Positions 1-12,480 of a DNA stretch of 12,480 bases are shown here, one piece after another. Every line of letters begins with the position of its first letter. The stretch's first letter is position 1. A program made the position numbers and the translations under genes. The stretch is from an uncultured Ruminococcus sp. (GTDB lineage Bacteria; Bacillota; Clostridia; Oscillospirales; Ruminococcaceae), in assembly GCA_945876155.1 (NCBI GenBank), contig CAMCMW010000014.1, forward strand, positions 1 through 12,480, read 5' to 3'. The notes under the pieces were generated by a model that was given only the letters and a program-made list of their open reading frames with translations, was not told where the DNA came from and did no database searches.

Positions 1-798
1 AATGATGAGCTGAACCCTGTTTTCTTAAATATCGGAAAAGACGGTTCAATCTCTCTCAGACATCAGGGAATTATAGAATTTCCAATGTCAGCAGTAAGTG
101 AAATATACCTTAAAAATATCCTCAGAAGTGATTACGCAAAACTGTTTATTGATGATGATGTTATTGAAAAACTGAATGAACACCTGAACAATACCCCGGA
201 CTTTGACTTTTCTCAGATTTTTCATTTCTGCGGTGCATTATCCGGTGATACTCCGGACGGCAATTTTATCAGTAAATTCAGAACTTTAAGGCAGGCTATA
301 CACAATAAATCCACCGTTTCATTCAGCAATACCACAAGAACGGAAAAAGTCTTTGAAAACCAGAAAGCAATCCCTACTAAAATTGAGTTTTCCGTTATGA
401 CAAGAAAATTTTACGTTTCAATGTGGGGCTGTGAAAACAATCGTCCTTTTAAGTGCGTTTTAAACTAATTGTATGACATTAAAATAATCGGGGAAAACAA
501 TGATTTTGACTATGAACAGATAATTTCATATATGCAGGACAAGCGCAATGCCGAACCAATTGTTATGAATGTTACAGACAAGTATAAAAACAATGCGATT
601 GAAAGAGCTGAACTGATATTTTCAATATATGAGCATGAAAACCAGACTAATAAGGACGGAAGTTATACAATTAAAATATGGTATTACTCTTATGACGAAA
701 TGGAAATCATTAACAATATAATGTCGTTCGGTCCAGCTATAAAGGTTCTTTCTCCGGAATCTGTTATTGACAAAATCAAAGAACGAATATTTTTTTGA
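1..798 (+). pseudogene. WYL-domain transcriptional regulator, 5'-truncated by the window and broken by an in-frame stop
   Basis: The reading frame is open from the first base, so the gene starts outside the window. It runs to TAA at 466-468 and continues in the same frame to TGA at 796-798. The two halves read as one WYL protein. The WYL core lies before the stop (AIHNKSTVSF, then PTKIEF and RKFYVSMWGCENNRPFKCVLN shortly before it), and LYDIKIIG continues it directly after the stop. The second half ends with the typical WYL C-terminal extension (EIINNIMSFGPAIKVLSPES, then IDKIKERI). The stop sits where the family has an ordinary residue just before the last WYL strand, so a single change from CAA, AAA or GAA would explain it. 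The downstream half has a possible TTG start at 469 but no ribosome binding site. WYL proteins are ligand-sensing regulators often found beside CRISPR-Cas loci. A sequencing error or two separate polypeptides remain possible. Confidence 0.8.
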
Positions 799-1283: not shown

Positions 1284-2774
1284 ATGGAAACTAAAAAAGT
1301 CCTTGCAAAATATGATATACGAGGTATTCAGGCATTCGTTTTCCGTACAAACAAGCTGAAAGAAATAAGAGCTGTTCAGAATCTGCCGGAAAAAATCGTA
1401 TTTGACGCTCTTTTAAATGCCGCCGGAAAATACTTTAATGCTGATATTAAGGGAAACGAACTGAAAAATAACGGCATTCAAGTCCTTGACAAAGCAGGCG
1501 GAAATGCTTTTGTTATCTTTGATAATATAGAACTGTACCGCAGTATAAGCCGTTTTATGGCATTTGATATACTAGAAAAAACTTACAGCTTAAAACTCCT
1601 CTATACTTTTGTTGAGTGTACCGGAGATTTTTACAGCGATTATACCATGCTCAACGACAAGCTGGGAAAACTTAAATCAGAAATGCCCGAAGTCTGCCAT
1701 ATCGGTGCATTTCCTGTCTGTCGTCAGGACGATGTTACAGGTTTCCCCATAGCAGGCAAAATTAAAGAGCACGGCAAAACTTCCTTTATAACTGAAGAAT
1801 CCGCACTCAAAAGAACTTATGCTGAAAAAAGTGGTCAGAAAATTGATGACTTCATTCTTGAAAAAGGCGTTGACAGCCATATTGCCGTAATACATATCGA
1901 CGGAAATAATATGGGCAACAGAATTAACGATATAATCAGGAAAATGTCCTATTACAACGCAGCTGAGGAATTCAGGAAAATAAAAGTCCGTGACAGCTTT
2001 GCAGAAGTATGTCGAGAAATGGAAACCGTGACCGAAAGCTTCAGAAATTCAGATAAAAACACAGGCAATAAAAATAATCCTATAATTCATGCAGTAATTC
2101 AGGCAGGTGACGATATCACGTATATCACCCGTGCCGATATCGCTTTGTCATTCACAAAAATTTTCCTTGAAAAAGTTTCAGAAAAATATATGTACGGCTC
2201 TGACGACAAATACCTTATAAGTGCCTGTGCAGGTATTGCATTCTGCAACAGCCACTTTCCTTTTTCAGACGCTTATGCTCTTGCTGAAAATTGCTGTGCA
2301 GCTGCAAAAAGACGTGCAAAAAATAACAAAGCACAGGACGGTTATATCGGAAACTGGATAGATTTTGAAATATGCACTCACATAAAGAATGTAGATTTGC
2401 AGCAAAGCCGTGAAAAGTACGGAAAAGTTGACAATACCGAATTGAATTTACGCCCTTACTGTGTAAAACATCCTAAGTATCATAATGCAGATTACGATTT
2501 TGAAGAAAAATTTGAAAAATATCTTCGTTTCCTTATCAATCCTCAAAAATCCAATGAATTGTACCTTAACCGCAGCAGGGCAAAGGAACTGAGAAATGCA
2601 TACTCTGACGGCAGAAATGCAGTGAAAATATTTGAACAGGCGGCAAAATCAAGAGATTACTCTGTGCCGGAATTATATTCAGAAACGGACGGAGTTCAGA
2701 AGGCTTCCTTATATGATGCAATAGAAATAATGGATTTGTATACAGACATTTCAACAGCGGAGGCAGTAAAATGA
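1284..2774 (+). CDS. cas10: Cas10 large subunit without HD domain (III-D-like)
   Basis: Cas10 is the signature subunit of type III effector complexes and, on target RNA binding, makes cyclic oligoadenylates from ATP through its Palm domains. This 496-residue protein begins directly with a Palm-type segment (KYDIRGIQAFVF from about residue 8), so the N-terminal HD nuclease of most Cas10 proteins is absent, and it is much shorter than typical Cas10. The second Palm shows HIDGNNMG with D206 and the cyclase motif as AGDD (274-277) instead of GGDD. Both aspartates (276, 277) are kept, so cyclase activity is plausible and HD-dependent DNA cutting is not. The start is set by GAGGAG at 1271-1276, seven bases before ATG. 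The stop overlaps the next start as ATGA, indicating translational coupling. Lack of HD is a known trait of subtype III-D. Confidence 0.9.
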   Translation: METKKVLAKYDIRGIQAFVFRTNKLKEIRAVQNLPEKIVFDALLNAAGKYFNADIKGNELKNNGIQVLDKAGGNAFVIFDNIELYRSISRFMAFDILEKTYSLKLLYTFVECTGDFYSDYTMLNDKLGKLKSEMPEVCHIGAFPVCRQDDVTGFPIAGKIKEHGKTSFITEESALKRTYAEKSGQKIDDFILEKGVDSHIAVIHIDGNNMGNRINDIIRKMSYYNAAEEFRKIKVRDSFAEVCREMETVTESFRNSDKNTGNKNNPIIHAVIQAGDDITYITRADIALSFTKIFLEKVSEKYMYGSDDKYLISACAGIAFCNSHFPFSDAYALAENCCAAAKRRAKNNKAQDGYIGNWIDFEICTHIKNVDLQQSREKYGKVDNTELNLRPYCVKHPKYHNADYDFEEKFEKYLRFLINPQKSNELYLNRSRAKELRNAYSDGRNAVKIFEQAAKSRDYSVPELYSETDGVQKASLYDAIEIMDLYTDISTAEAVK

Positions 2775-4777
2775 GCTATTTTAAAATTGAACTTCTCAGC
2801 GACTTGTGTGCTTCAAATGGCGAAAGTTTTGGTAGTGTTATTGATACTGACATTGCGTTTGATTCTTTCGGACTGCCTGTTATCAAAGGTAAAAGTCTTA
2901 AAGGCTGCCTTCGTGAATGTGCAGAGGAATTATACGACCTCGGACTTGCGGACAGTACGTTTATTGACGAAGTATTCGGCGTAAAAGGAAATACCAGTTC
3001 AGGCAATCTGATGATTCAGGACGCTCACCCTGCAAATTACAGCGAGCTTATAAAGGACATTTCAGAAAATGCGCTGCTGCATGAAAATGTAATGAACTGC
3101 TATACGTATACGAGAGGTCAGACAAGCATCAATGATGACGGCGTTGCAAAAGACGGTTCATTAAGAACTATAAGAGTACTTGGAAAAAATCATACATTTA
3201 TCTGCGAATATTCCTTAGACGAAAAATACAGAAACAGTTTTTACAAATGTCTTACTCTTCTCAGACATATAGGTCTGAACCGTACAAGAGGTTTAGGTGA
3301 GATAAAATGTACTCCTTTAAATGATGCTGATTTTTTAAAGTCTGACAGTCAAAAAAGCAGTAATAATATTTCTGATTATGATTATCTTGAATATACATTT
3401 GAAACTATATCTCCTCTTATCAGTTCCGACAGTAATGAAAACACAGACTATATTCCCGGTTCAGCAATGATGGGACTTTGCTTTAACAAAATCGGAAACA
3501 ACACAATGAAAGACTGGCTTAATGATGAACTTGTCTTTACAAATGCCTATATAAGTGACAATGAAAAGGCGTTTTATCCCAATCCTGCATTTATGGCAAA
3601 GCAAAAGGAAGCTGCTTTTAACAGTGAAAACAAAATGCCGGTATATATTTTTGATACTGAAAAATGCAATAATGCCACTCCGCCTGCACTTCCTGTAAAA
3701 GGCATGAATATTTCAGCAGATACAGATTTCAGAACTGTTTCTTCAATATCTGTACGTCATGAAATAAACTATCATCACCAGCAGTCGCAGAATAATCCGG
3801 GAATAATTGACGGAGAAAATTTCTATCAGCTTTCTTCGATATCCTCAGGACAAAAATTCAGAGGAAAAATATACGGCAGCAAACAGCAGCTTTCTGAAAT
3901 AAAAAAAGCTTTTTCTGAAACTGAATATGTCAATATCGGCTATTACAGGTCTGGAGGATATGGAAAATGCAGACTGGAAATAATCGAAAAATGTGATACA
4001 CAACAGACTATCTCGGACTGCCTTGCCGTATGGCTCCACTCATCTGTTGTTATGTATGACGATAACGGTATGCCTTGTGCGAAACCGGAAGTATTCGTAA
4101 AATACTTCAATAGTCTCCTTCGTCACAGCAAAACAGACGCTCACATCACCGGCATAACACATAAGTATCTGAAGTATGCAAATGCCGGAGGATATAATGT
4201 TACATGGGGAATGAACAAAAGTGTTTTTCAGACTTATGCAGGCGGAACAGTTTTTGTACTGAAGCTTTCAGAAAAAATTGATCTTAACCTGTTAAAACAC
4301 AAAATGCTCGGCGAAAGAACTTCGGAGGGTTACGGAGAATTTCAGATTTTTGATTATAATGACATTATAAAAAATGAAAATCCAGTAGTTTCAAAAGTGT
4401 CATTTATACCGTCTGTTCAGCAAGTTTATGAATACAGTAACGAATACAGCTGGAAACTGCCGTCTGACATAATTGGACAAAATAAAAAAATAACTGAAGT
4501 ACAGCTTATTGCAATTGAAAAAGCAAGTGACAAGCAATTCAAAATCAATCCTGCACAGGTCGGAAGACTTCTTCTCATGCTTAAAGAAAGCAATAGTTAC
4601 AGCGATTTTCTGAAAAGCATTGATAATATCAAAGATAATAATCGTAAGGAAGCGGCTAAAAAGATCGTTCAGCTGCCTGATGGTGTAAATGATGATATGT
4701 ACAAGGAATATTTCAGGCTATTGCTTACACTAAAAAAATATGATCTCAGAAAGGAAGAAAAAGCTGATGCAAAATAA
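2771..4777 (+). CDS. csx10: Cas7-Cas5(Csx10)-Cas11-like fusion, type III-D backbone subunit
   Basis: A 668-residue fusion of effector parts. Residues 1 to about 195 form a Cas7/Csm3-like RAMP domain: candidate catalytic aspartates D25/D27, then VIKGKSLKGCLRE near 37-49 and the glycine-rich RGLGE at 173-177. Residues about 205-560 match Csx10, the Cas5 of III-D: IPGSAMMG (228-235), FTNAY, the RSGGYG loop (393-398) and GERTSEGYG (514-522). The last about 100 residues are rich in charged helices without RAMP motifs, suggesting a Cas11-like small subunit. No separate small-subunit gene exists in the operon. This Cas7-Cas5-Cas11 order is what I recall for the III-Dv complex of Synechocystis. GGAGG at 2759-2763 lies seven bases before the ATG, which overlaps the cas10 stop. 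The Cas7 and Csx10 parts are well supported; the Cas11 assignment is inferred from position and length. Confidence 0.85.
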   Translation: MSYFKIELLSDLCASNGESFGSVIDTDIAFDSFGLPVIKGKSLKGCLRECAEELYDLGLADSTFIDEVFGVKGNTSSGNLMIQDAHPANYSELIKDISENALLHENVMNCYTYTRGQTSINDDGVAKDGSLRTIRVLGKNHTFICEYSLDEKYRNSFYKCLTLLRHIGLNRTRGLGEIKCTPLNDADFLKSDSQKSSNNISDYDYLEYTFETISPLISSDSNENTDYIPGSAMMGLCFNKIGNNTMKDWLNDELVFTNAYISDNEKAFYPNPAFMAKQKEAAFNSENKMPVYIFDTEKCNNATPPALPVKGMNISADTDFRTVSSISVRHEINYHHQQSQNNPGIIDGENFYQLSSISSGQKFRGKIYGSKQQLSEIKKAFSETEYVNIGYYRSGGYGKCRLEIIEKCDTQQTISDCLAVWLHSSVVMYDDNGMPCAKPEVFVKYFNSLLRHSKTDAHITGITHKYLKYANAGGYNVTWGMNKSVFQTYAGGTVFVLKLSEKIDLNLLKHKMLGERTSEGYGEFQIFDYNDIIKNENPVVSKVSFIPSVQQVYEYSNEYSWKLPSDIIGQNKKITEVQLIAIEKASDKQFKINPAQVGRLLLMLKESNSYSDFLKSIDNIKDNNRKEAAKKIVQLPDGVNDDMYKEYFRLLLTLKKYDLRKEEKADAK

Positions 4778-6056
4778 TCGAATTAAAATAAAAAGCAGAC
4801 AGTTTTATGAAGTTCCTCTGGTTCTTTCCTCTCCTTTAAGTATTTCATCAGGAACTGTTAACAGCACCGACCATGATGTAATGAGATCACCTGACGGAAC
4901 GCCTTTTATTCCCGGTTCATCTGTTGCCGGTGCATTCAGAGATTACATAACAGGGAATGTCAGAATTTCTGCCGCCGAAAAACTGTTTGGGTACACCCGC
5001 GGCGAAACTGACAGTTCAATGAGCAGAATATTTATTTCAGATATTTCATTTGAAAATGCTGTCGTTTCTGTTCGTGACGGTATTGAACTCAGCGAATACA
5101 AAGTTACTCAGAACAACGCCAAATATGATTACGAAATTATTGAAACAGGTGCAGAGGGCGTTTTAAAAATTGAAGTTGTTCTTTATGATTCGGACAGTGA
5201 ACTGGATATCGATTCTGTCAATGATATTGTAAAGTGCTTTATTTCATCTGTTCACAACGGCTTTATACGTTTCGGCTTTAAAAAGAACCGAGGACTTGGT
5301 CAGTTTCATCTGAAAAATGTAGACAATACTCTTTATTACAGATACAAGGAATTTGATTTTTCCTGCGGCTGTGCTGATGAGTATCTGCATTTTCTGACAG
5401 AACCAGAATATGAAACTGTAACATTTCAGCCGGAACAATATGCTGAGAACGAAAATCAGATTATGTTCAATATTACTTTAAAGCTTTCAGGCGGAATAAG
5501 CATCAGAACATATTCAGCCAAACCGGAAGAACCTGATTTTGCCCATATAACCACTCATGACGGAACAGCTGTTATACCTGGTTCAAGCTGGAACGGTGCA
5601 ATAAGGGCAAGAGCATTTGACATTCTCAAATATGACCTTGATTGCCGTAAGCTGGTTAAAGAACTTGAAAAGATATGGGGAATTGCTGACAATCAGTTTA
5701 TTGCTTCACAGATAATTTTCTCTGAAAGCAGGATAAAAAATAATACCTGCATGCTTCAGATGACACGAAACAAAATCAACCGTTTTGACTCTTCAACTGT
5801 TGATTCAGCATTATACACAGAACAAACCTGTATAGGCGGTGAAACAAATCTTGAAATTATTATAAAAAACAAACAGGAAAATTTATGGGTGGCTGGTCTG
5901 ATACTCCTTGTTATCCGTGATATTGAGAATGGTCTGCTTGCAGTCGGTGGTCAGACAGCTGTCGGAAGAGGGATATTCTGCGGTAATTCAGATATAAATT
6001 ATAAGGAATATACGGATGCACTTAAAGAAAAAATGAACGAGGTGAAATGCTCGTGA
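4767..6056 (+). CDS. Double Cas7 (Cas7-2x) RAMP protein
   Basis: 429 residues with two consecutive Cas7/Csm3-like RAMP domains, so one polypeptide supplies two crRNA-backbone subunits. Domain 1 (about 5-210) has a DHDV acidic loop (D35/D37), FIPGSSVAGAFRD (IPGSS at 48-52) and the RGLGQ loop (175-179). Domain 2 (about 225-420) has PDFAH (D257), VIPGSSWNGAIR (IPGSS at 270-274) and VGGQTAVGRG (393-402). The acidic residues before each IPGSS are the likely target-RNA-cutting positions, by analogy with Csm3. An in-frame ATG at 4740 is possible, but the one at 4767 is preferred because AAGGAAG (4751-4757) is placed correctly for it and it overlaps the upstream gene by only 11 bases. This matches the Cas7-2x subunit of III-Dv-type complexes. 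Confidence 0.87.
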   Translation: MQNNRIKIKSRQFYEVPLVLSSPLSISSGTVNSTDHDVMRSPDGTPFIPGSSVAGAFRDYITGNVRISAAEKLFGYTRGETDSSMSRIFISDISFENAVVSVRDGIELSEYKVTQNNAKYDYEIIETGAEGVLKIEVVLYDSDSELDIDSVNDIVKCFISSVHNGFIRFGFKKNRGLGQFHLKNVDNTLYYRYKEFDFSCGCADEYLHFLTEPEYETVTFQPEQYAENENQIMFNITLKLSGGISIRTYSAKPEEPDFAHITTHDGTAVIPGSSWNGAIRARAFDILKYDLDCRKLVKELEKIWGIADNQFIASQIIFSESRIKNNTCMLQMTRNKINRFDSSTVDSALYTEQTCIGGETNLEIIIKNKQENLWVAGLILLVIRDIENGLLAVGGQTAVGRGIFCGNSDINYKEYTDALKEKMNEVKCS

Positions 6057-6526
6057 ATATCAGCAGTTTAAAAAAAATTTCAATGGCATGCAAAAATGGT
6101 TATGTTCTGGCTGTTTACCGTACTGGTGTTGAATTCGGTGAATGGAATGGTGAATTCCCGTGGTCAGGTCACGAAAATGATGAACTGCCTGAACTTCATA
6201 TTTTCAATGAAAATTCTGAATACCGTGCAGTTTATTCATACGCTGAAAAAGCTTACATTGAAAAAATTCTGGATAATGATTTGTCCGGAAACTTTACAGA
6301 CGACAAAATGCTTTTACTTGGCGAAGAATTTGTTTCTTCGGGTGCAGGCAGTCTGACAGTAAAGGAAAAAGGAAGAAAAGTAACTTTTCATCTGAACAAA
6401 GACAAGTGCGATTTTGATAAAGGAATTTATCTTAATGTGCGCAATTATTATGAGTATGATGAAAATGATCTGATATATCTGTCCGGATATCGTCTTACAG
6501 GAATCTCAGTCGGGGAGGAAGAATAA
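6053..6526 (+). CDS. csx19: Csx19-like protein of the III-D effector
   Basis: A 157-residue acidic soluble protein. The C-terminal half fits the Csx19 family (TIGR03984), a small subunit specific to III-D complexes: LLLGEEF near the middle, then GAGSLTVKEKGRKVTFHL and finally LNVRNYYEYDENDLIYLSGY followed by RLTGI. The N-terminal segment (YVLAVYRTGVEFGEW) also resembles that family. Identification rests on remembered family patterns and on the neighbours. GTG at 6053 is chosen as start because GAGGTG (6039-6044) is eight bases upstream and GTGA overlaps the previous stop by four bases. The alternative ATG at 6047 is only two bases from that ribosome binding site and would add two residues. 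Its exact role in the complex is not evident from sequence. Confidence 0.7.
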   Translation: MNISSLKKISMACKNGYVLAVYRTGVEFGEWNGEFPWSGHENDELPELHIFNENSEYRAVYSYAEKAYIEKILDNDLSGNFTDDKMLLLGEEFVSSGAGSLTVKEKGRKVTFHLNKDKCDFDKGIYLNVRNYYEYDENDLIYLSGYRLTGISVGEEE

Positions 6527-6527
6527 A

Positions 6528-8471
6528 ATGATTGACACAAAAAAGTCTGAGTACAAAGACTATCATGAAAAAAAAACAGATGTAACTTTTCTGAATCCTT
6601 ATAACTTTATTCCTCTTCCTCACAAAATAAAAAGAACTGCCTCTGTTGAAAAAGGCAGTCTTACAGGCGTAATTGAATGCACACTTGTACCCATAACAGA
6701 TTTTTTTATTCCTAATACAAGTGCTGAATGTACCGCAAACAGTCCTCACGGAAATACTGTACGGGATTTTTTTTCATATAATCAATTAGTCAGCGGTTAT
6801 AATATCTCAGAACATGACGGTCCTGAAAAGCCTGTTATTCCCGGAAGCGAACTGCGTGGAATGATAAGAAGTATGTATGAGGCGTTTACCAATTCCTGCT
6901 TGTCGTGCATGGATACTGACAAACCACTTTCTTCACGTTCATCTGACGCTAAACAACCCGGATTACTTGAATATATTAACGGGAAATGGGTTATTTTTCA
7001 AGCTGGGAAGCACAAAGTCAGTCATGACTTATTCAAAAAGCATACAGACAGCAGTAAAACAAATTATATTGAATATCATGGCAAAAAATATTATAATGGT
7101 GACAAGGTGAATTTTAATTCCCATATACATGAATCTTATAATCAGAAAATTAAAAAAACAATCAAATCGAGTATTGCAGATGATATTTCCGACTATGGCA
7201 GAAAAAGCGGTTATCTTGTAATAGGCGGTGAAATAGGAAACAAGAAAAATGAATTCATTTTTGTAAAAGAAAAGAAAACGGATATTTCTGACATAGTGAT
7301 TTCAAACGCAATAAATGGCTACAACAGTTCACTTAAAGACTTTTATCAGAACGAAAAGGTAAACCGTTCAGGAAAATCACTGCATACTGGAAAGGAAATC
7401 ACTCCTGCTGCCGGGGCTGTATATCCGGTATGGTATGAACAAATCGGCGATAAGTTATATCTTTCTCCGGCATGCATCGGACGCAATGTTTATAACAATA
7501 CTCTGGACAGCCTTGCCGGCAAACACAAATGCTGCGAATCAAAAGAAGATATATGCGAGGCGTGTGCATTGTTCGGACTGCTTGGTGAAACGTCAGGCAG
7601 ACTGCGTTTCTCTGACGCTGTTTTTTCATCAGAGGACGCTCCTCTGTATCAGGAAGTTGTAACCTTAAAAGAACTTTCATCCCCAAAGATTACAAGTATG
7701 GAAATGTATACTCACAGCAGAATAAGCCCGGAGTTCTGGACTTATGATTACTACAAAGAAAACAAGCGTAAGATATATTTTAAAAACGATGAGCTTGAAT
7801 TAAACGGACGAAAGTTCTATTATCATCACCCTGAATGCAAAGGCAAAAATTACTATAAATATGTATGTCAGCAGAGCAATGAGCAAAATAATGATTATGA
7901 AAGACTTGTGACTGTTCGTCCATTAAAAGGAGATGAAAAAAACACATTCAGATTCAGAGTGTTTTTTGAACATATTACAGAGACTGAACTTGAAAAGCTT
8001 TTATGCGTAATCTCCCTCTGGGGCAACGATTCAGAGCATTATTATAAGCTTGGAATGGGAAAGCCTATTGGACTTGGAAGTGTTAAAGTCAGAGTAAATG
8101 ATGTTAAGCTGAGAAGTATTTGCCCTGACTATGATAAAATATATGATTTCAGTTCAACAAAAAAATATGAGGAATATTATTCTGGTTGTAACGATGAAAC
8201 AATAAAGAAGTTATTTGAAACAGATAACGCTGTTTTTGATCAACTCAAAAATATGACCGATTTCAGATACGCCGAAAAGCTGAAAAGCCATGGAAAAATC
8301 AACGATTGTATATCATCAGTACACTACCCCACTGCTTTTGATGGACCCGAGGGCTTTAAATGGTTCACAAACAATCGTAAAATCGGCGGCAAGTATGAAC
8401 AGGTCCTTGGCACAGACGGTGTTTTGAAGAAAAATTCTGCTCCTAAAAAGAAAAACTTTAAAAAACGGTAA
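6528..8471 (+). CDS. Long Cas7-type RAMP protein with insertion (TIGR03986-like)
   Basis: 647 residues with the hallmarks of the TIGR03986 RAMP family: NPYNFIPLP at 23-31, VIPGSELRGMIRSMYEA with IPGSELRG at 104-111, NSCLSC (122-127), a cysteine cluster CC-x6-C-x2-C (C335, C336, C343, C346) leading into ALFG, and the glycine-rich LGMGKPIGLG (508-517). Between about 130 and 320 lies a poorly conserved, lysine-rich stretch, the likely insertion that splits the Cas7 fold and gives the Cas7-insertion subunit in III-Dv. The cysteines probably bind zinc. The last residues are strongly basic (APKKKNFKKR), fitting RNA contact. The gene follows csx19 by one base, with GGGGAGGA at 6512-6519 giving a strong start. 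It is the last gene of the operon, and its 3' end overlaps the convergent cas6 by 14 bases. With the two genes before it, the locus encodes four Cas7 domains. Confidence 0.87.
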   Translation: MIDTKKSEYKDYHEKKTDVTFLNPYNFIPLPHKIKRTASVEKGSLTGVIECTLVPITDFFIPNTSAECTANSPHGNTVRDFFSYNQLVSGYNISEHDGPEKPVIPGSELRGMIRSMYEAFTNSCLSCMDTDKPLSSRSSDAKQPGLLEYINGKWVIFQAGKHKVSHDLFKKHTDSSKTNYIEYHGKKYYNGDKVNFNSHIHESYNQKIKKTIKSSIADDISDYGRKSGYLVIGGEIGNKKNEFIFVKEKKTDISDIVISNAINGYNSSLKDFYQNEKVNRSGKSLHTGKEITPAAGAVYPVWYEQIGDKLYLSPACIGRNVYNNTLDSLAGKHKCCESKEDICEACALFGLLGETSGRLRFSDAVFSSEDAPLYQEVVTLKELSSPKITSMEMYTHSRISPEFWTYDYYKENKRKIYFKNDELELNGRKFYYHHPECKGKNYYKYVCQQSNEQNNDYERLVTVRPLKGDEKNTFRFRVFFEHITETELEKLLCVISLWGNDSEHYYKLGMGKPIGLGSVKVRVNDVKLRSICPDYDKIYDFSSTKKYEEYYSGCNDETIKKLFETDNAVFDQLKNMTDFRYAEKLKSHGKINDCISSVHYPTAFDGPEGFKWFTNNRKIGGKYEQVLGTDGVLKKNSAPKKKNFKKR

Positions 8472-9177
8472 CTACAAAACCGCCCATTCCCTGGGTCGTT
8501 TTTCCGCCGACTCCTGAATAAACAGAATACTGAAATATTTGTTTCAGCAAATCAGACTGTTCTCTTTTTTCAGGCAATTTAACTGAGTAACTGCCGCACA
8601 TTCCGTAATATTTATATCCTGTGATGTAATGAACACAGCTTTCAAGACTGTAATTTATTATTCTGCATTCATTCCATGCCTTAATAAATTCTTCATTGCT
8701 GACAGAAAGATTTTCAAAGCAGTTCAGCTTGCATATTGCCGAATAAAAATATTTTTCGGGAGTCGGAGGGTTTTGATATCTTCCGGCCGAGCGAACTGTT
8801 GCAGGTGTTAAGAATTTAAGTCTCAGTTTATCGCCGTTGATACTTTCCGCAAGATCTTCAGATTGTATCGGATGACTTTCAGAAACATTGGTCTGAACTA
8901 TCTTTGAGCCGCCGTAAATTTTTATTTTCTTAAGTGATGCAAGCTTGTCAATCAGTATTCCGGCTTCATCATTGAGAGATGATATCCTGAGCAGCAGCTC
9001 TCCCGGCTGTGTCGGGACGCAGTACAGCGAAAACGGGTGATACAGTGAACTATGCATTTTATCTGCTATATCCTTACTTATATTGTGCATAAGCGCACCG
9101 TGAATTTTTACTGATGGGTCAGACTGTAGACTGGAAAAGTCTTCGTACTGGTATAATATATCGGCATATCTTAACAT
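8458..9177 (-). CDS. cas6: Cas6 pre-crRNA endoribonuclease
   Basis: Cas6 cuts the repeat RNA of pre-crRNA to make mature crRNAs and would serve both arrays here, since their repeats are nearly identical. The 239-residue length fits the family. The N-terminal ferredoxin-like half contains KIHGALMHNI, with H26 and H31 as candidate catalytic histidines; this cannot be settled by eye. The second half has LKFLTPATVRSAGRYQNPP and the C-terminal glycine-rich loop GVGGKTTQGMGG (222-233), a Cas6 hallmark used in repeat RNA binding. The start is supported by GGAGG (complement of 9187-9191), nine bases upstream. Unusually, the gene runs opposite to the effector operon, has its own promoter, and overlaps the 3' end of the last effector gene with no terminator between them, so the two transcripts must overlap. 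Confidence 0.92.
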   Translation of the reverse strand: MLRYADILYQYEDFSSLQSDPSVKIHGALMHNISKDIADKMHSSLYHPFSLYCVPTQPGELLLRISSLNDEAGILIDKLASLKKIKIYGGSKIVQTNVSESHPIQSEDLAESINGDKLRLKFLTPATVRSAGRYQNPPTPEKYFYSAICKLNCFENLSVSNEEFIKAWNECRIINYSLESCVHYITGYKYYGMCGSYSVKLPEKREQSDLLKQIFQYSVYSGVGGKTTQGMGGFVVTVF

Positions 9178-9208
9178 TGATGCTTTCCTCCGGAGAATAT
9201 TTTATAAA

Positions 9209-9237
9209 ATTATACCATAAATCATTTTTTATGTAAA
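9209..9237 (-). promoter_or_regulatory. Promoter of cas6
   Basis: Read on the minus strand: -35 TTTACA (complement of 9232-9237), a 17-base spacer and -10 TATAAT (complement of 9209-9214), preceded by TGG as an extended -10. It sits about 30 bases upstream of the cas6 start, in the 79-base gap between the divergent cas6 and CARF-HEPN genes. I see no equally good rightward promoter in this gap. Confidence 0.8.
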
Positions 9238-9256
9238 GTTTTGAAAGGAATTTTAA

Positions 9257-10777
9257 ATGAATAATAACGGGAAAAAAATATGTTTCTTTTTTACTCCTCC
9301 AACAATTAATGAATATTCTTATACCAGAGGTAATGGGAAAAATGATGAAAAAATTAAAGAAACAGATAAAAAATACTATTTCGGAAACACTGACCAGGAA
9401 GAAGTTGGCAGCGGATTTGTTCATTATACAACTGCTGTTGCCTGTGCTGCAAATAAAAAATATGGTATAACACATTATCTTGGTGCATATGATAAAAAAG
9501 AAGTTATATCAGACATTGAAAATGATTTGAAAGATAAAAGTCATGCAGAGAATATCTGCTGGGCAGAATATAATGAAAATATGAACTCCGATGAGATACT
9601 CAAAAGCATATTCTCAAATATTGATCTCTCGGACTGCAGTGAAATCATTATTGCAATTAACAGCGGTATCAGAAACAATGTAATGTTCTTTTCCGTTATC
9701 TCACAGATCATGAGTTACAGAGGTATTAACATCAGACTCCTTTATGTAAAACCAAAGTCAAATGACAACAACGAACATATTATTGATGTAACTGAACAGA
9801 ACAAATACTTCGATGTTCTCAGAGCTGTTGAACTTTTCACTGAAACCGGTAATCCAAAAAAACTGAAAGAACAATATAAAGATGAAAAAGAACTTGATGC
9901 ACTGTTTGACTACATGGACAGGTTTTACAAAAGTATTCAGGTGTGCAGACCGGTAAATAACAGTGAAAACAGCAACATAAGCGTTCTGGACATATACGAT
10001 AATATGATAAAAGAAATCGACAGGCTGATACAGAACAGCGAAAATGCTGATATTCCGGTTATAATGCAGTTCCTTTTGCCTGAAATAAAGAAACGTTTTG
10101 CTCCTGACGATAACAAGGATTCTTTCCTGCAAATCTTTGAATGGTGCCAGAACAACGGCATGATAACCATTGCGTTCTTTATCCTTGACGCTGAAATAAC
10201 AAGGTATATTCAGAATAAAAAGCTGCTTGATGTTAATTATCCGAAATCCAGGCAAAAGTTCCCTTCCCCATACAACAATTGGTCTAACGATTATTCAGGA
10301 AAGGGTTCAGCAAGCGATTTGTCGATTTTAATACAGTATAGTATAAGATATATGAGCTTTAACATTAAGCGTAATATAAATGAAAGCAAAAAAAGCGTCC
10401 TTAATAAATTCGGAATCAAATTTTCTGATGAGGCACTTACAATTATAATGATTCACGAGTTGATTCGCCGTACAAGAAACAGCATGGCTCACTCAGATTT
10501 GTTCACTGGTATTCTCGGAACTGACGATTACTGCGCACTTACAACTCTTACGAACAAATATCGCAATGAGATAAAAACCGTTAATCTTTATCCTGAAAAT
10601 AAATCTGATATAATCAAAGTATCCAAAAACGGAGAAACTATTAATTCAGTATTAATAAAAAAAGGCACGGAAATTACTATTACTCAGGAAAATGCCTATG
10701 AAAAGTATGAAAGTCTGCTTAAATGCATACTTAATGACCTGAAAAAAGCTGCAAACCAGAAAAGGGATAACACTTAA
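9257..10777 (+). CDS. CARF-HEPN ribonuclease (Csx1/Csm6-like), cyclic oligoadenylate effector
   Basis: A 506-residue accessory effector of type III CRISPR. Family members bind cyclic oligoadenylate made by Cas10 through the CARF domain and then degrade RNA with the HEPN domain. The N-terminal about 190 residues look like a CARF Rossmann fold: KKICFFFTPP as first strand, GITHYLGAY, and EIIIAINSGIRNNVMFFSVI with the ligand-type loop SGIRNN at 136-141, followed by INIRLLYV. The C-terminal helical part has RRTRNSMAH, an Rx4H HEPN active site with R407 and H412 intact, so the nuclease is predicted active. No membrane segment is seen. AAGGAA lies six bases before the ATG, and the stop shares one base with the next start (TAATG). 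Which named family it belongs to (Csx1, Csm6 or another TM1812-like group) cannot be fixed by eye. Confidence 0.85.
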   Translation: MNNNGKKICFFFTPPTINEYSYTRGNGKNDEKIKETDKKYYFGNTDQEEVGSGFVHYTTAVACAANKKYGITHYLGAYDKKEVISDIENDLKDKSHAENICWAEYNENMNSDEILKSIFSNIDLSDCSEIIIAINSGIRNNVMFFSVISQIMSYRGINIRLLYVKPKSNDNNEHIIDVTEQNKYFDVLRAVELFTETGNPKKLKEQYKDEKELDALFDYMDRFYKSIQVCRPVNNSENSNISVLDIYDNMIKEIDRLIQNSENADIPVIMQFLLPEIKKRFAPDDNKDSFLQIFEWCQNNGMITIAFFILDAEITRYIQNKKLLDVNYPKSRQKFPSPYNNWSNDYSGKGSASDLSILIQYSIRYMSFNIKRNINESKKSVLNKFGIKFSDEALTIIMIHELIRRTRNSMAHSDLFTGILGTDDYCALTTLTNKYRNEIKTVNLYPENKSDIIKVSKNGETINSVLIKKGTEITITQENAYEKYESLLKCILNDLKKAANQKRDNT

Positions 10778-11598
10778 TGAAAATATATACCCAAGGCTAT
10801 ACCCATGCCGGAAAATTCCATGCTGATGATGTTTTTTCAACGGCACTGCTTAAACTATTAAATCCGGATTTCAAAGTCAGACGTGTCAACAAGCTGCCGG
10901 AAAATCCGGACGGAATCGTTTACGATATAGGCGGCGGGAAATTTGACCACCACCAGACCGATTCTCCGGTAAGAGATAACGGTATTCCCTATGCGGCTTT
11001 TGGTCTTTTATGGAAAGAGTACGGCGCATACATCATGGAAAGTGAAGAAAGCGCTTTACAGTTTGACCAGAAGTTCGTTTCTGCAATAGATTATGCAGAT
11101 AATACTGGTGAATACGATTCACTTTCAGCTGCTGTTTCGTCTTTTGTTCCGCCATGGAACAGCAGTGAAAGTATTGACAGTGCATTTGAAAAAGCTGTTG
11201 ATTTCGCTTTCAATATCCTTGACCGGCTTATTCAGAAAAGCAAGGCTGCCAGGCTTGCCGATGAACTTGTAATGAACGCTTACAAGGATAGTGTTAATAA
11301 TATTGTGATACTGAATCAGTATATGCCGTGGGAAAAGGTTCTTACCGATACTGACGCTGTTTTTGTTATATACCCCTCGCTGAGGGGCGGTTATAATATC
11401 CAGGGTGTTCCTGTTGAACACGGCAGCAATATTGTAAAAAAACCTTTTCCTCCTGAATGGTGCGGCAGAGAGGACAGCGAAATTGTTCTGGCAAGCGGTA
11501 TAGACGGTCTGAGGTTCTGCCACAAAAACGGTTTCCTCGCCTCGGCTGAAACTCTTGATTCAGCAATAAAAGCTGCTGAATTTGCAATTAATCTATAA
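10777..11598 (+). CDS. MYG1/UPF0160 family metal-dependent phosphoesterase (DHH-like)
   Basis: 273 residues matching the MYG1 (UPF0160) family throughout. The N-terminal metal motif is THAGKFHADDV (9-19), with H10, H15, D17 and D18. YDIGGGKFDHHQ (49-60) carries the DHH triad D57-H58-H59. IDYADN, with D105, supplies a further ligand, PPWN follows, and the C-terminal FPPEWCG is a family signature. Eukaryotic MYG1 is a 3'-5' RNA exonuclease, and related DHH enzymes hydrolyse short RNAs and cyclic dinucleotides. Bacterial members are little studied. Here it is joined to the CARF-HEPN gene by a one-base TAATG overlap, with a ribosome binding site (AAAAGGGA, about 10760-10768) inside that gene, so the two are co-translated. 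The family is common outside CRISPR, so it might be a housekeeping gene captured here. A role in removing cyclic oligoadenylate or trimming RNA fragments is inference only. Confidence 0.88.
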   Translation: MKIYTQGYTHAGKFHADDVFSTALLKLLNPDFKVRRVNKLPENPDGIVYDIGGGKFDHHQTDSPVRDNGIPYAAFGLLWKEYGAYIMESEESALQFDQKFVSAIDYADNTGEYDSLSAAVSSFVPPWNSSESIDSAFEKAVDFAFNILDRLIQKSKAARLADELVMNAYKDSVNNIVILNQYMPWEKVLTDTDAVFVIYPSLRGGYNIQGVPVEHGSNIVKKPFPPEWCGREDSEIVLASGIDGLRFCHKNGFLASAETLDSAIKAAEFAINL

Positions 11599-11652: not shown

Positions 11653-12030
11653 GTCACAATCACCTTACGGTGTCAGGGTGGTATACAGGGGCATCATTAA
11701 GGATATGGAAATTGAACTCGGTGTCAATCACCTTACGGTGTCAGGGTGGTATACAGAGCTGAAATTGATACAAATGTAGGACTAATCTAGTGTCGATCAC
11801 CTTACGGTGTCAGGGTGGTATACAGCAACAATTCTAAAACAATGAAATTAAGAAATTCGTGTCGATCACCTTATGGTGTCAGGGTGGTATACAGTTAGTC
11901 CGATTTGAATCTAGCAGGACTTAATGTGTCAATCACCTTGCGGTGTCAGGGTAGTGTACAGAAAATGGGAAGATGGCATGAACATCCGATGAGTGTGTCA
12001 ATCACCTTACGGTGTCAGGGTGGTATACAG
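11653..12030 (-). CRISPR. CRISPR array 2: six 36-base repeats, five spacers, transcribed leftward
   Basis: Repeats lie at 11653-11688, 11721-11756, 11790-11825, 11859-11894, 11926-11961 and 11995-12030. Spacers are 32, 33, 33, 31 and 33 bases. On the minus strand the repeat equals that of array 1, with CCACCCTG in place of CCACCTTG. The leftmost repeat is degenerate at its outer end (starts GTCACAATC, not GTGTCAATC), marking it as leader-distal, and the promoter-bearing leader is on the right. Several internal repeats carry changes: GTGTCGATC in the third and fourth, TTATGG in the fourth, and three substitutions in the fifth (TTGCGG, GTAGTGTACAG). Confidence 0.97.
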
Positions 12031-12107
12031 AGCAAAACATACTTTTTAGATTTCTTTATTGCTTTATACCATGAAATTATTTTATCATATTTTTCTGCCA
12101 TTGTCAA
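12031..12107 (-). promoter_or_regulatory. Leader and promoter of CRISPR array 2
   Basis: On the minus strand: TTGACA (complement of 12102-12107), a 17-base spacer, and TAAAAT (complement of 12079-12084) preceded by TGA, then a short leader ending TTTTGCT right at the first repeat. The beginning (TTGACAATG, then AGAAAAATATG) and the block AAAGCAATAAAGAAAT (complement of 12050-12065) align with the array 1 leader. This shows that the two leaders share an origin and fixes the transcription direction. Confidence 0.88.
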
Positions 12108-12128
12108 TACTTTTATGCACTTTTTGTC

Positions 12129-12157
12129 GTGAGTTTCTGCGCCTTTTGTATTATAAT
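12129..12157 (+). promoter_or_regulatory. Promoter of mini-ORF cassette 1
   Basis: A -35-like GTGAGT (12129-12134) keeps the TGA core of the consensus, and lies 17 bases before a perfect TATAAT (12152-12157). The GTGA is also the right arm of the conserved CAC-N8-GTGA element. This promoter points away from the leftward array 2 promoter, with the two -35 regions only about 20 bases apart. Confidence 0.6.
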
Positions 12158-12185
12158 TAGATTGTAATCACGAGGAGGTGGGTTT

Positions 12186-12245
12186 ATGAGACTTTCAACT
12201 GCTCTTAAGGTTGCGGCTTTGGTTGCAAGGGTTTTTGGCAAGTGA
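12186..12245 (+). CDS. Mini-ORF 1, 19-residue cationic amphipathic peptide
   Basis: Reads MRLSTALKVAALVARVFGK and stops at TGA (12243-12245). GGAGG at 12174-12178 is seven bases before the ATG and a consensus -10 lies about 30 bases upstream, so expression is well supported for so short a frame. The peptide has three basic residues (R2, K8, R15) plus a C-terminal lysine, spaced among aliphatic residues, and could form an amphipathic helix. It has no signal peptide. A membrane-active toxin, signalling peptide or leader peptide are all possible. I do not recognise it. Confidence 0.5.
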   Translation: MRLSTALKVAALVARVFGK

Positions 12246-12266
12246 TGTTTTTCTTCACTTTTTGTC

Positions 12267-12295
12267 GTGAGTTTTTTCCGCTTATGCTTTATAAT
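12267..12295 (+). promoter_or_regulatory. Promoter of mini-ORF cassette 2
   Basis: GTGAGT (12267-12272), 17 bases, TATAAT (12290-12295). The spacing is the same as in cassettes 1 and 3. Overlapping its -35 is TCAC-N8-GTGA (12255-12270), a candidate operator. Confidence 0.6.
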
Positions 12296-12321
12296 ATGAT
12301 TATCACATGGAGGTGATTGTT

Positions 12322-12369
12322 ATGAGTATGAGTATTACTTCTGTTACCAGGCGTTATCATCATCTTTGA
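12322..12369 (+). CDS. Mini-ORF 2, 15-residue peptide
   Basis: Reads MSMSITSVTRRYHHL and stops at TGA (12367-12369). The ribosome binding site GGAGGTGAT (from 12309) is complementary to the 16S rRNA tail over nine bases, eight bases from GGAGG to the ATG. The peptide is polar and basic at its C-terminus and does not resemble mini-ORF 1. The frame alone is too short to prove coding; the support comes from its position in the conserved cassette. Confidence 0.45.
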   Translation: MSMSITSVTRRYHHL

Positions 12370-12387
12370 TTTTCTTCACTTTTTGTC

Positions 12388-12416
12388 GTGAGTTTTTCCA
12401 CGTTATCCGTTATAAT
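12388..12416 (+). promoter_or_regulatory. Promoter of mini-ORF cassette 3
   Basis: GTGAGT (12388-12393), 17 bases, TATAAT (12411-12416), with the same TCAC-N8-GTGA element over the -35 (12376-12391). A downstream ATCAC-N6-GTGAT pair (12423-12438) surrounds the ribosome binding site GGGGG, as in cassette 2. Confidence 0.6.
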
Positions 12417-12441
12417 TATGTTATCACAAGGGGGTGATTCC

Positions 12442-12480
12442 ATGAACATTTTCGGTGCTCTTAGTATCGCCAGTGCGGTT
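12442..12480 (+). CDS. Mini-ORF 3, cut by the window end
   Basis: Begins MNIFGALSIASAV and is still open at the last base, so its length is unknown. It has a ribosome binding site (GGGGGTGAT from 12430) and sits in the third cassette. The visible part is hydrophobic and small-residue rich, closer in character to mini-ORF 1 than to mini-ORF 2. It may be another tiny peptide or the start of a longer gene. Confidence 0.5.
   Translation, partial: MNIFGALSIASAV

Follow-up and report, generated by a model that had tools for sequence, protein, structure and literature searches.

A cut tandem array of putative micropeptide genes beside a type III-D CRISPR-Cas locus in an uncultured Ruminococcus

Why should near-identical promoters be repeated in front of very short and mutually unlike open reading frames at the edge of a CRISPR-Cas locus? 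The window, i.e. the whole stretch of DNA analysed here, is an entire contig (C14; 12 480 bases) of a draft Ruminococcus genome (G000; 436 contigs, 76.94% complete), and it holds a type III-D CRISPR-Cas locus. The type III-D genes (1284..10777), which form the context of the units in question, encode Cas10 (1284-2774), Cas5/Cas7-type RAMPs (2771-4777, 4740-6056 and 6528-8471), Csx19 (6047-6526), Cas6 on the minus strand (8458-9177) and a CARF protein of the Csx1/Csm6 type (9257-10777). The gene of an MYG1-type (UPF0160) protein (10777-11598) separates the CARF effector gene from CRISPR array 2. The latter consists of six repeats (11653..12033) and, judging from its leader promoter on the minus strand (TTGACA-17-TAAAAT, 12079..12107), is presumably transcribed leftwards, i.e. 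divergently from the peptide units.

The first of these units abuts the array 2 promoter, as already pointed out in the preliminary description of this DNA and borne out here. All three units lie on the plus strand and open with exact copies of one 19-base block, CACTTTTTGTCGTGAGTTT (12118..12136, 12256..12274 and 12377..12395), and in each of them the -10 element TATAAT (12152..12157, 12290..12295 and 12411..12416) follows at exactly 34 bases from the block start; identity and offset were confirmed at all coordinates. Given a 17-base spacer, the block contains a weak -35 element (GTGAGT), and the box CACTTTTTGTC lies immediately upstream of it. The peptides had been reported to comprise 19, 15 and at least 13 residues, and the corresponding micro-ORFs are indeed found at 12186..12245 (MRLSTALKVAALVARVFGK, 19 codons), 12322..12369 (MSMSITSVTRRYHHL, 15 codons) and 12442..12480 (MNIFGALSIASAV..., 13 codons up to the contig end). 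Since the right window edge is the contig end and falls within unit 3, the array is cut, not finished. Two statements of the preliminary description hold in part. A Shine-Dalgarno (SD) sequence is present in all three units (e.g. AGGAGGTG at 12173..12180 in unit 1), but it is not uniformly strong: the running match to the ideal SD AAGGAGGTGATC is 8 bases in unit 1 and 9 in unit 2, and at only 6 bases that of unit 3 is the weakest. Likewise, the peptides are unlike one another within the window but not genome-wide, as unit 1 has one paralogue (MPVSTALKVAYVAAKVLGL) and unit 3 two complete 28-aa paralogues (MNIFGGLSIVSAVVTCIGAIAE...) on another contig, C132; the unit 3 ORF has one further homologue in a genome of another genus (G336).

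It is also on C132 (minus strand, 5191-5230) that a fourth block with its TATAAT is located, the only other exact copy in the genome, and thus the block does occur outside the window. Three of the four copies had been specified beforehand in the preliminary description; the fourth was retrieved by exact matching, and plain BLAST recovered the same place. Across the four copies the block is identical at 19/19 positions, whereas the 15 bases from block to TATAAT agree at only 7-10 of 15; the conserved thing is therefore the block and not the entire promoter copy. Copies of the block core with one mismatch number ten in this genome, compared to six for the control, and none of them adjoins an array. 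Read on its minus strand, C132 begins 23 bases 5' of the ATG start codon of a complete gene of the unit 3 type; it carries seven micro-ORFs beyond the three of the window, in the order MNIFGGLSIVSAVVTCIGAIAEVICNDD, MLKCLFCPRFLCCCSGDRC, MPVSTALKVAYVAAKVLGL, block, MNIFGGLSIVSAVVTCIGAIAEAVSDND, MVRPLRYPSNPILRNIIVF, MILSVVRNPFDSRRRFPFVVY and MFKNVLAVAGLAVTVIGTFLEIRREHF; a 117-nt pair with 93% identity marks a duplication within it. The last micro-ORF is followed by a palindrome, then by a 17-base inverted repeat with a T run, and then by three CRISPR repeats of the window's type. From its sequence we read the inverted repeat with its T run as terminator-like and as the putative end of the array; our terminator scan did not list it, its 13-base loop being above the limit of the scan. 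Inside the arrays, three such scans gave 1, 2 and 2 sites, with 0.4, 0.9 and 0.6 expected. The palindrome between the last micro-ORF and the terminator-like repeat is long and imperfect (L005 4730-4787; 21-base arms, 90%).

Both contigs break off within one and the same repeated gene, and their CRISPR arrays are alike and equally oriented; C14 and C132 are therefore probably neighbours split by the assembler. In total, the array thus comprises at least 10 short ORFs of constrained length over two contigs of one genome. Assuming the adjacency, C132 also speaks against the alternative that the units are promoter remnants in front of one larger gene beyond the window, for what it shows is further micro-ORFs and a terminator-like repeat instead of such a gene. 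The leader promoter of CRISPR array 3 (TTGACA-17-TATAAT, C132 4472-4500, plus strand) and that of array 2 both oppose the peptide direction, so that the peptide array starts divergently from leader 2 while its end faces array 3, from which the terminator-like repeat separates it. As to the leaders themselves, leaders 2 and 3 (window 12102-12125; L005 4454-4477) share AAAAAGTGCATAAAA(G/A)TATTGACA, including the bases that abut the peptide block; leader 1 (TTGACA at 818) is without the upstream part of this shared sequence.

Are such short frames coding at all? Within 1143 bases of C14 and C132 there are 10 SD+ATG sites, compared to a mean of 0.13 and a maximum of 5 in 5000 Markov simulations. 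The length of the frames is a fair test as well, since a random frame that starts with an ATG would have a similar mean length (∼19 codons). For this we used the 18 complete ORFs of both array-bearing genomes minus three paralogous copies. The 15 remaining, non-redundant ORFs all have 15-29 codons, with a coefficient of variation of 0.22 (0.93 in simulated sequences), and equally narrow lengths occurred in 0 of 4000 simulations; by this measure the frames look coding. The paralogues differ mainly by changes of amino acids: five nonsynonymous and one synonymous codon separate the two unit-3-type copies B2 and B3, and eight nonsynonymous and four synonymous codons (the stop codon among the latter) separate unit 1 from its paralogue. 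The peptides thus drift apart under control DNA that is kept, as the preliminary description had stated. Its proposal that micropeptide genes form a multi-copy family, with control elements conserved and products not, is thus supported by sequence, through the copies on C132 as well as the array of G336. ORFs of 15-29 codons are at or under the usual gene-calling cut-off, and arrays of this kind therefore tend to escape annotation.

The G336 array emerged from a search of 396 genomes of the family for two perfect tandem SDs around a micro-ORF, a pattern which matched only the array described above and G336; it catches some unit pairs only, and other arrays may be missed. In G336 (L035 6200-7290), nine micro-ORFs with SDs lie within 1090 bases, with a simulated mean of 0.44 and a maximum of 6. 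The head of this array reads CACTTTTTGTCATGA-N19-TATAAT, with 0 mismatches to the promoter pattern and with the same 34-base offset; over its first 15 bases the block thus has a counterpart without mismatch to the pattern in another genus too. A second, weaker promoter copy (CACTTTCTGACAGGA) has TAGAAT at 34 bases, and a 91-nt pair with 98% identity indicates duplication here as well. Between the two arrays, the unit-3-type peptide B (MNIFGGLSIVSAVVTC.GAIAE) is homologous to the G336 peptide MTAKTLIGMASAVVTCAGAIADILLDSKR (local score 57, reached in 0 of 20 000 shuffles), this being the best of the 72 cross-genome pairs compared. Apart from peptide B no cross-genome pair survives these 72 comparisons (the next best pair tested further, MFKN..., has p 0.008). 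In an 11-codon core common to peptide B and its G336 homologue, six of the eight base differences are at third positions; the core was picked for its likeness, and the count is thus supporting only. A search of 297 family genomes with peptide B listed, beyond the peptide's own copies, two weak matches in longer frames (E 0.04 and 0.07), which were dropped; G336, which may not have been part of the 297, is absent from the list.

Allowing up to two mismatches, the promoter pattern occurs in 14 of the 396 genomes, with zero-mismatch sites only in G000 and G336. The 12 other genomes have one site each, and we treated these as chance, as none is near three or more clustered micro-ORFs and a reversed control pattern gave seven hits. 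In a set of 61 genomes the exact promoter pattern was found in the own genome only, and in none of the 10 other genomes of the genus. With arrays in only two genomes, and with the pattern missing from these 10 relatives, the array is rare and patchy. An order-wide search matched 2 of 389 genomes, i.e. the own genome and G658, and the latter match (L149) lacks a micro-ORF cluster. In phages, plasmids and IMG/VR we found no match to the array DNA, the promoter pattern, a peptide or the WYL gene discussed below, short queries making this search insensitive. A looser tandem-SD pattern matched 28 viral stretches, and at least three SD micro-ORFs are present in five of them (L121, L128, L133, L140 and L143). 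The frames overlap or stem from repeats in all of these but L143, which has three separate SD micro-ORFs encoding unlike peptides. The viral contig L127 carries two tandem SD micro-ORFs on its minus strand (4409-4518), whose 34- and 35-aa products are hydrophobic with charged tails. Rfam gave nothing at gathering score in the window, L035 and L080, and a laxer run on C132 gave sub-threshold hits only.

With respect to their chemistry the peptides form a mixed set, which comprises cationic (up to +5; MRLSTALKVAALVARVFGK has a charge of +4 and MSTRFILRSAVTAVRIAARFLR of +5), anionic, hydrophobic, Cys-rich and Arg/Pro-rich members. Mean hydrophobicity spans -0.14 to 0.50 in 17 peptides, and helical amphipathicity exceeds that of shuffled sequences (p<0.05) in only three of the 17, so that an activity on membranes can be put forward only as a conjecture. 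The mixture itself argues for a cocktail rather than for one signal or one toxin. Searches of Pfam (seven peptides) as well as PHROGs and NCBIfam (six each) gave nothing better than E 0.15, and the two peptides compared with solved structures had no match.

What might control such an array? The candidate is a gene for a WYL-type regulator at the other end of the window (1..798, plus strand), 11.3 kb from the peptide array, whose 5' part lies off the contig and which is broken by an in-frame TAA (466-468). Its WCX domain scores 23.7 bits (cut-off 23.9), and both parts of the broken gene match a WYL protein of G336 (34% and 33% identity). In G336 a convergent pair of WYL-type genes adjoins the array, followed by two DEAD-box helicases of 1063 and at least 1037 aa (L035 7260-15999). 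The helicases have their best PADLOC scores to Hachiman HamB models, one of them also to BREX helicases, and their nearest NCBIfam model is Hel308, far under its cut-off; WYL pair and helicases together are a possible undescribed defence operon. A search of 377 family genomes, in which 53 gave at least one WYL hit, ranked the WYL gene of the window first among the non-self matches of the WYL gene that adjoins the G336 array (9.2e-37, the next being 4.2e-21), a link made by one rank, with a chance of about 1 in 52. Apart from G000 and G336 there are 53 WYL places; in the 40 whose flanks we inspected, a few of them truncated at contig ends, we found no case of three or more clustered micro-ORFs, and five carry a micro-ORF pair. 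Rank and cluster-free flanks together suggest that the array accompanies a single WYL lineage, as it does in both of two cases, and not WYL genes generally. Outside the arrays the box has only three-mismatch hits in the window and L035, and none on C132; the WYL protein would be the one to bind it. WYL proteins are known to adjoin CRISPR and other defence genes (PMC4012209), and in one defence island the repressor is BrxR (PMC9122601). The two array-bearing genomes resemble such loci in having WYL genes close to defence-type genes; in contrast to them, a micropeptide array is present here, which the portions of these two papers at hand do not describe. A link to defence, for which type III-D CRISPR in the window and the kinship of the WYL genes in the two genomes speak, is no more than suggestive.

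Several known systems combine short peptides or toxic small genes in ways that resemble this arrangement. The location of the array between CRISPR arrays recalls CreTA, where potentially toxic small genes likewise adjoin CRISPR arrays, and where by analogy a crRNA-like guide from the adjoining array would repress the peptides. The leader-proximal spacer of array 2 (11964-11985) matches the SD/start region of the unit-3 type at 17 of 22 positions, in an orientation fit for pairing with the mRNA; this best match sits at the start codon, not at the promoter. Comparing nine spacers in both orientations with the peptide DNA gives a best p of 0.010 in 18 tests, however, which is not significant after correction, and the scanned parts of the G336 contig show no CRISPR-like array among their largest repeat families. 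CreTA, as far as the accounts at hand go, also combines type I effectors with RNA toxins, and we regard this explanation as the least credible of all. A cluster of leaderless bacteriocins or of peptides like phenol-soluble modulins, by contrast, would share the membrane step with a cocktail of the kind proposed here and differ in purpose: the unprocessed peptides would leave the cell and permeabilise neighbours. Tandem ORFs each with its own SD and without leader peptides, several of them short and cationic (among them MRLSTALKVAALVARVFGK and MSTRFILRSAVTAVRIAARFLR), fit this well. Peptides within one leaderless bacteriocin set resemble each other, whereas those of one array here are mostly unlike, and several are anionic, Cys-rich or Arg/Pro-rich. 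Sets such as aureocin A70 and garvicin KS also have likenesses in their several leaderless peptides in tandem, but comprise three or four short cationic peptides, which in aureocin A70 are of ∼30 aa, and are accompanied by genes for secretion and immunity (PMC6131525, in the portion at hand); the present array has repeated promoters and ten or more peptides of 15-28 aa, mostly unlike one another. ORF lists and Pfam searches of selected neighbours (window, C132 and L035) revealed no recognisable transporter or immunity gene beside either array, which weighs against a classical bacteriocin, as does the lack of any match in solved structures for the two peptides compared and of any hit in the family databases beyond the value given above. 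We consider a bacteriocin doubtful, though a serious contender.

The preliminary description had instead thought of tandem type I toxins or of signal peptides, and neither kinship found support. Type I toxins (Ldr, Ibs, Fst) are tiny, sometimes hydrophobic, multi-copy peptides restrained by antisense RNAs, the typical toxin being a hydrophobic peptide of fewer than 60 aa with a transmembrane helix, and sizes of 15-29 aa, hydrophobic members like MFKNVLAVAGLAVTVIGTFLEIRREHF and MNIFGGLSIVSAVV..., and a small SD hairpin (AUCAC/GUGAU, 4-5 bp) predicted in some leaders would fit such a family; IbsC is a toxin of 19 aa (PMC8309996). Many of the peptides are not hydrophobic, however, and a consensus scan saw no antisense promoter in the window units or G336 and no more than chance would give on C132, namely two weak ones; the scan also misses the weak -35 peptide promoters of this genome and so counts for little. 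Furthermore, a structured leader of the toxin mRNA is a trait of type I systems, and Ldr or Ibs copies resemble one another; here the predicted leaders are short (∼20 bases from the -10), fold no more stably than shuffled sequences (z of 0.0 to 0.4 for four longer folds and of 0.1 to 0.55 for three short ones), and the copies are mostly unlike. A type I system is accordingly improbable. Signals of the SHP/Phr kind, destined for a cytoplasmic receptor, would be short as well, and ∼0.4 kb past the last C132 micro-ORF, with CRISPR array 3 in between, lies the gene of a protein of 504 aa whose N-terminus has a putative HTH. This protein shows no Pfam domain above cut-off, though, is a single copy in its genome and missing from the other 10 genomes of the genus, and a relative with 50% identity (L014) has no micro-ORF cluster around it. 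No cognate receptor was thus found, this one candidate not travelling with the peptide genes, and signalling is more improbable still. As a cognate regulator of the array the protein was rejected as it travels with a hydantoinase-like cluster: the gene (L005 2907-4421; 40 homologues at E up to 1e-3) lies beside genes which we named cysteine-hydrolase-like and hydantoinase-like, the same neighbours recur in L014, and the protein is possibly the regulator of these hydrolase-like neighbours. One neighbouring gene has its nearest named relative in a Ruminococcus sp. genome (74% identity). Finally, decayed promoter and SD copies without peptide function would be in line with the similar mean length that random ORFs have and with the mainly nonsynonymous differences between copies within the genome (five against one for B2 and B3), but not with the narrow lengths seen in no simulation, the mostly third-position changes of peptide B across genera, or a block conserved next to drifting spacers. 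Mere decay thus seems very improbable.

The reading we prefer, with a confidence that is evenly poised, is that the micropeptide genes of the window are the 5' part of a longer tandem array, cut by the contig end, which is built to be expressed and whose promoter-gated cocktail of peptides would act on membranes. The elements legible in the array are sigma-A-type promoters with perfect -10 and, in this genome, poor -35 elements, the conserved box and the SDs. A DNA-binding factor at the box, for which the WYL-type regulator is the best candidate, would switch several promoters together; translation would then release a mixed set of short peptides, of which several are hydrophobic or carry a strong charge, and which may act as peptides on membranes and harm either the producing cell within a defence response or its neighbours. 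The array itself would grow through tandem duplication and divergence of the peptides, with the promoter box held constant. Near-identical promoters, strong SDs and mostly different peptides, together with the matching row in G336 beside defence-type genes, make this look like a real yet undescribed family of expressed micropeptides, and the array would be a variant of a tandem multi-peptide gene cluster; none of the best literature matches listed describes micropeptide arrays of this kind in the portions at hand.

A bolder version of this reading, which we consider unlikely, is that of a new defence module: on infection, unlike micropeptides that are encoded next to type III-D CRISPR-Cas or helicase defence genes and controlled by a WYL protein would be switched on jointly via the shared box and disable cell or phage, their repertoire being diversified by tandem duplication. 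A distinct defence-linked system thus has a minority chance. It was the promoter box and the SD rhythm that made the array findable across genera. If its peptides act in defence or competition, the array would be a compact arsenal of evolvable peptides next to CRISPR, and the box would offer a direct handle for locating the regulator of the array.
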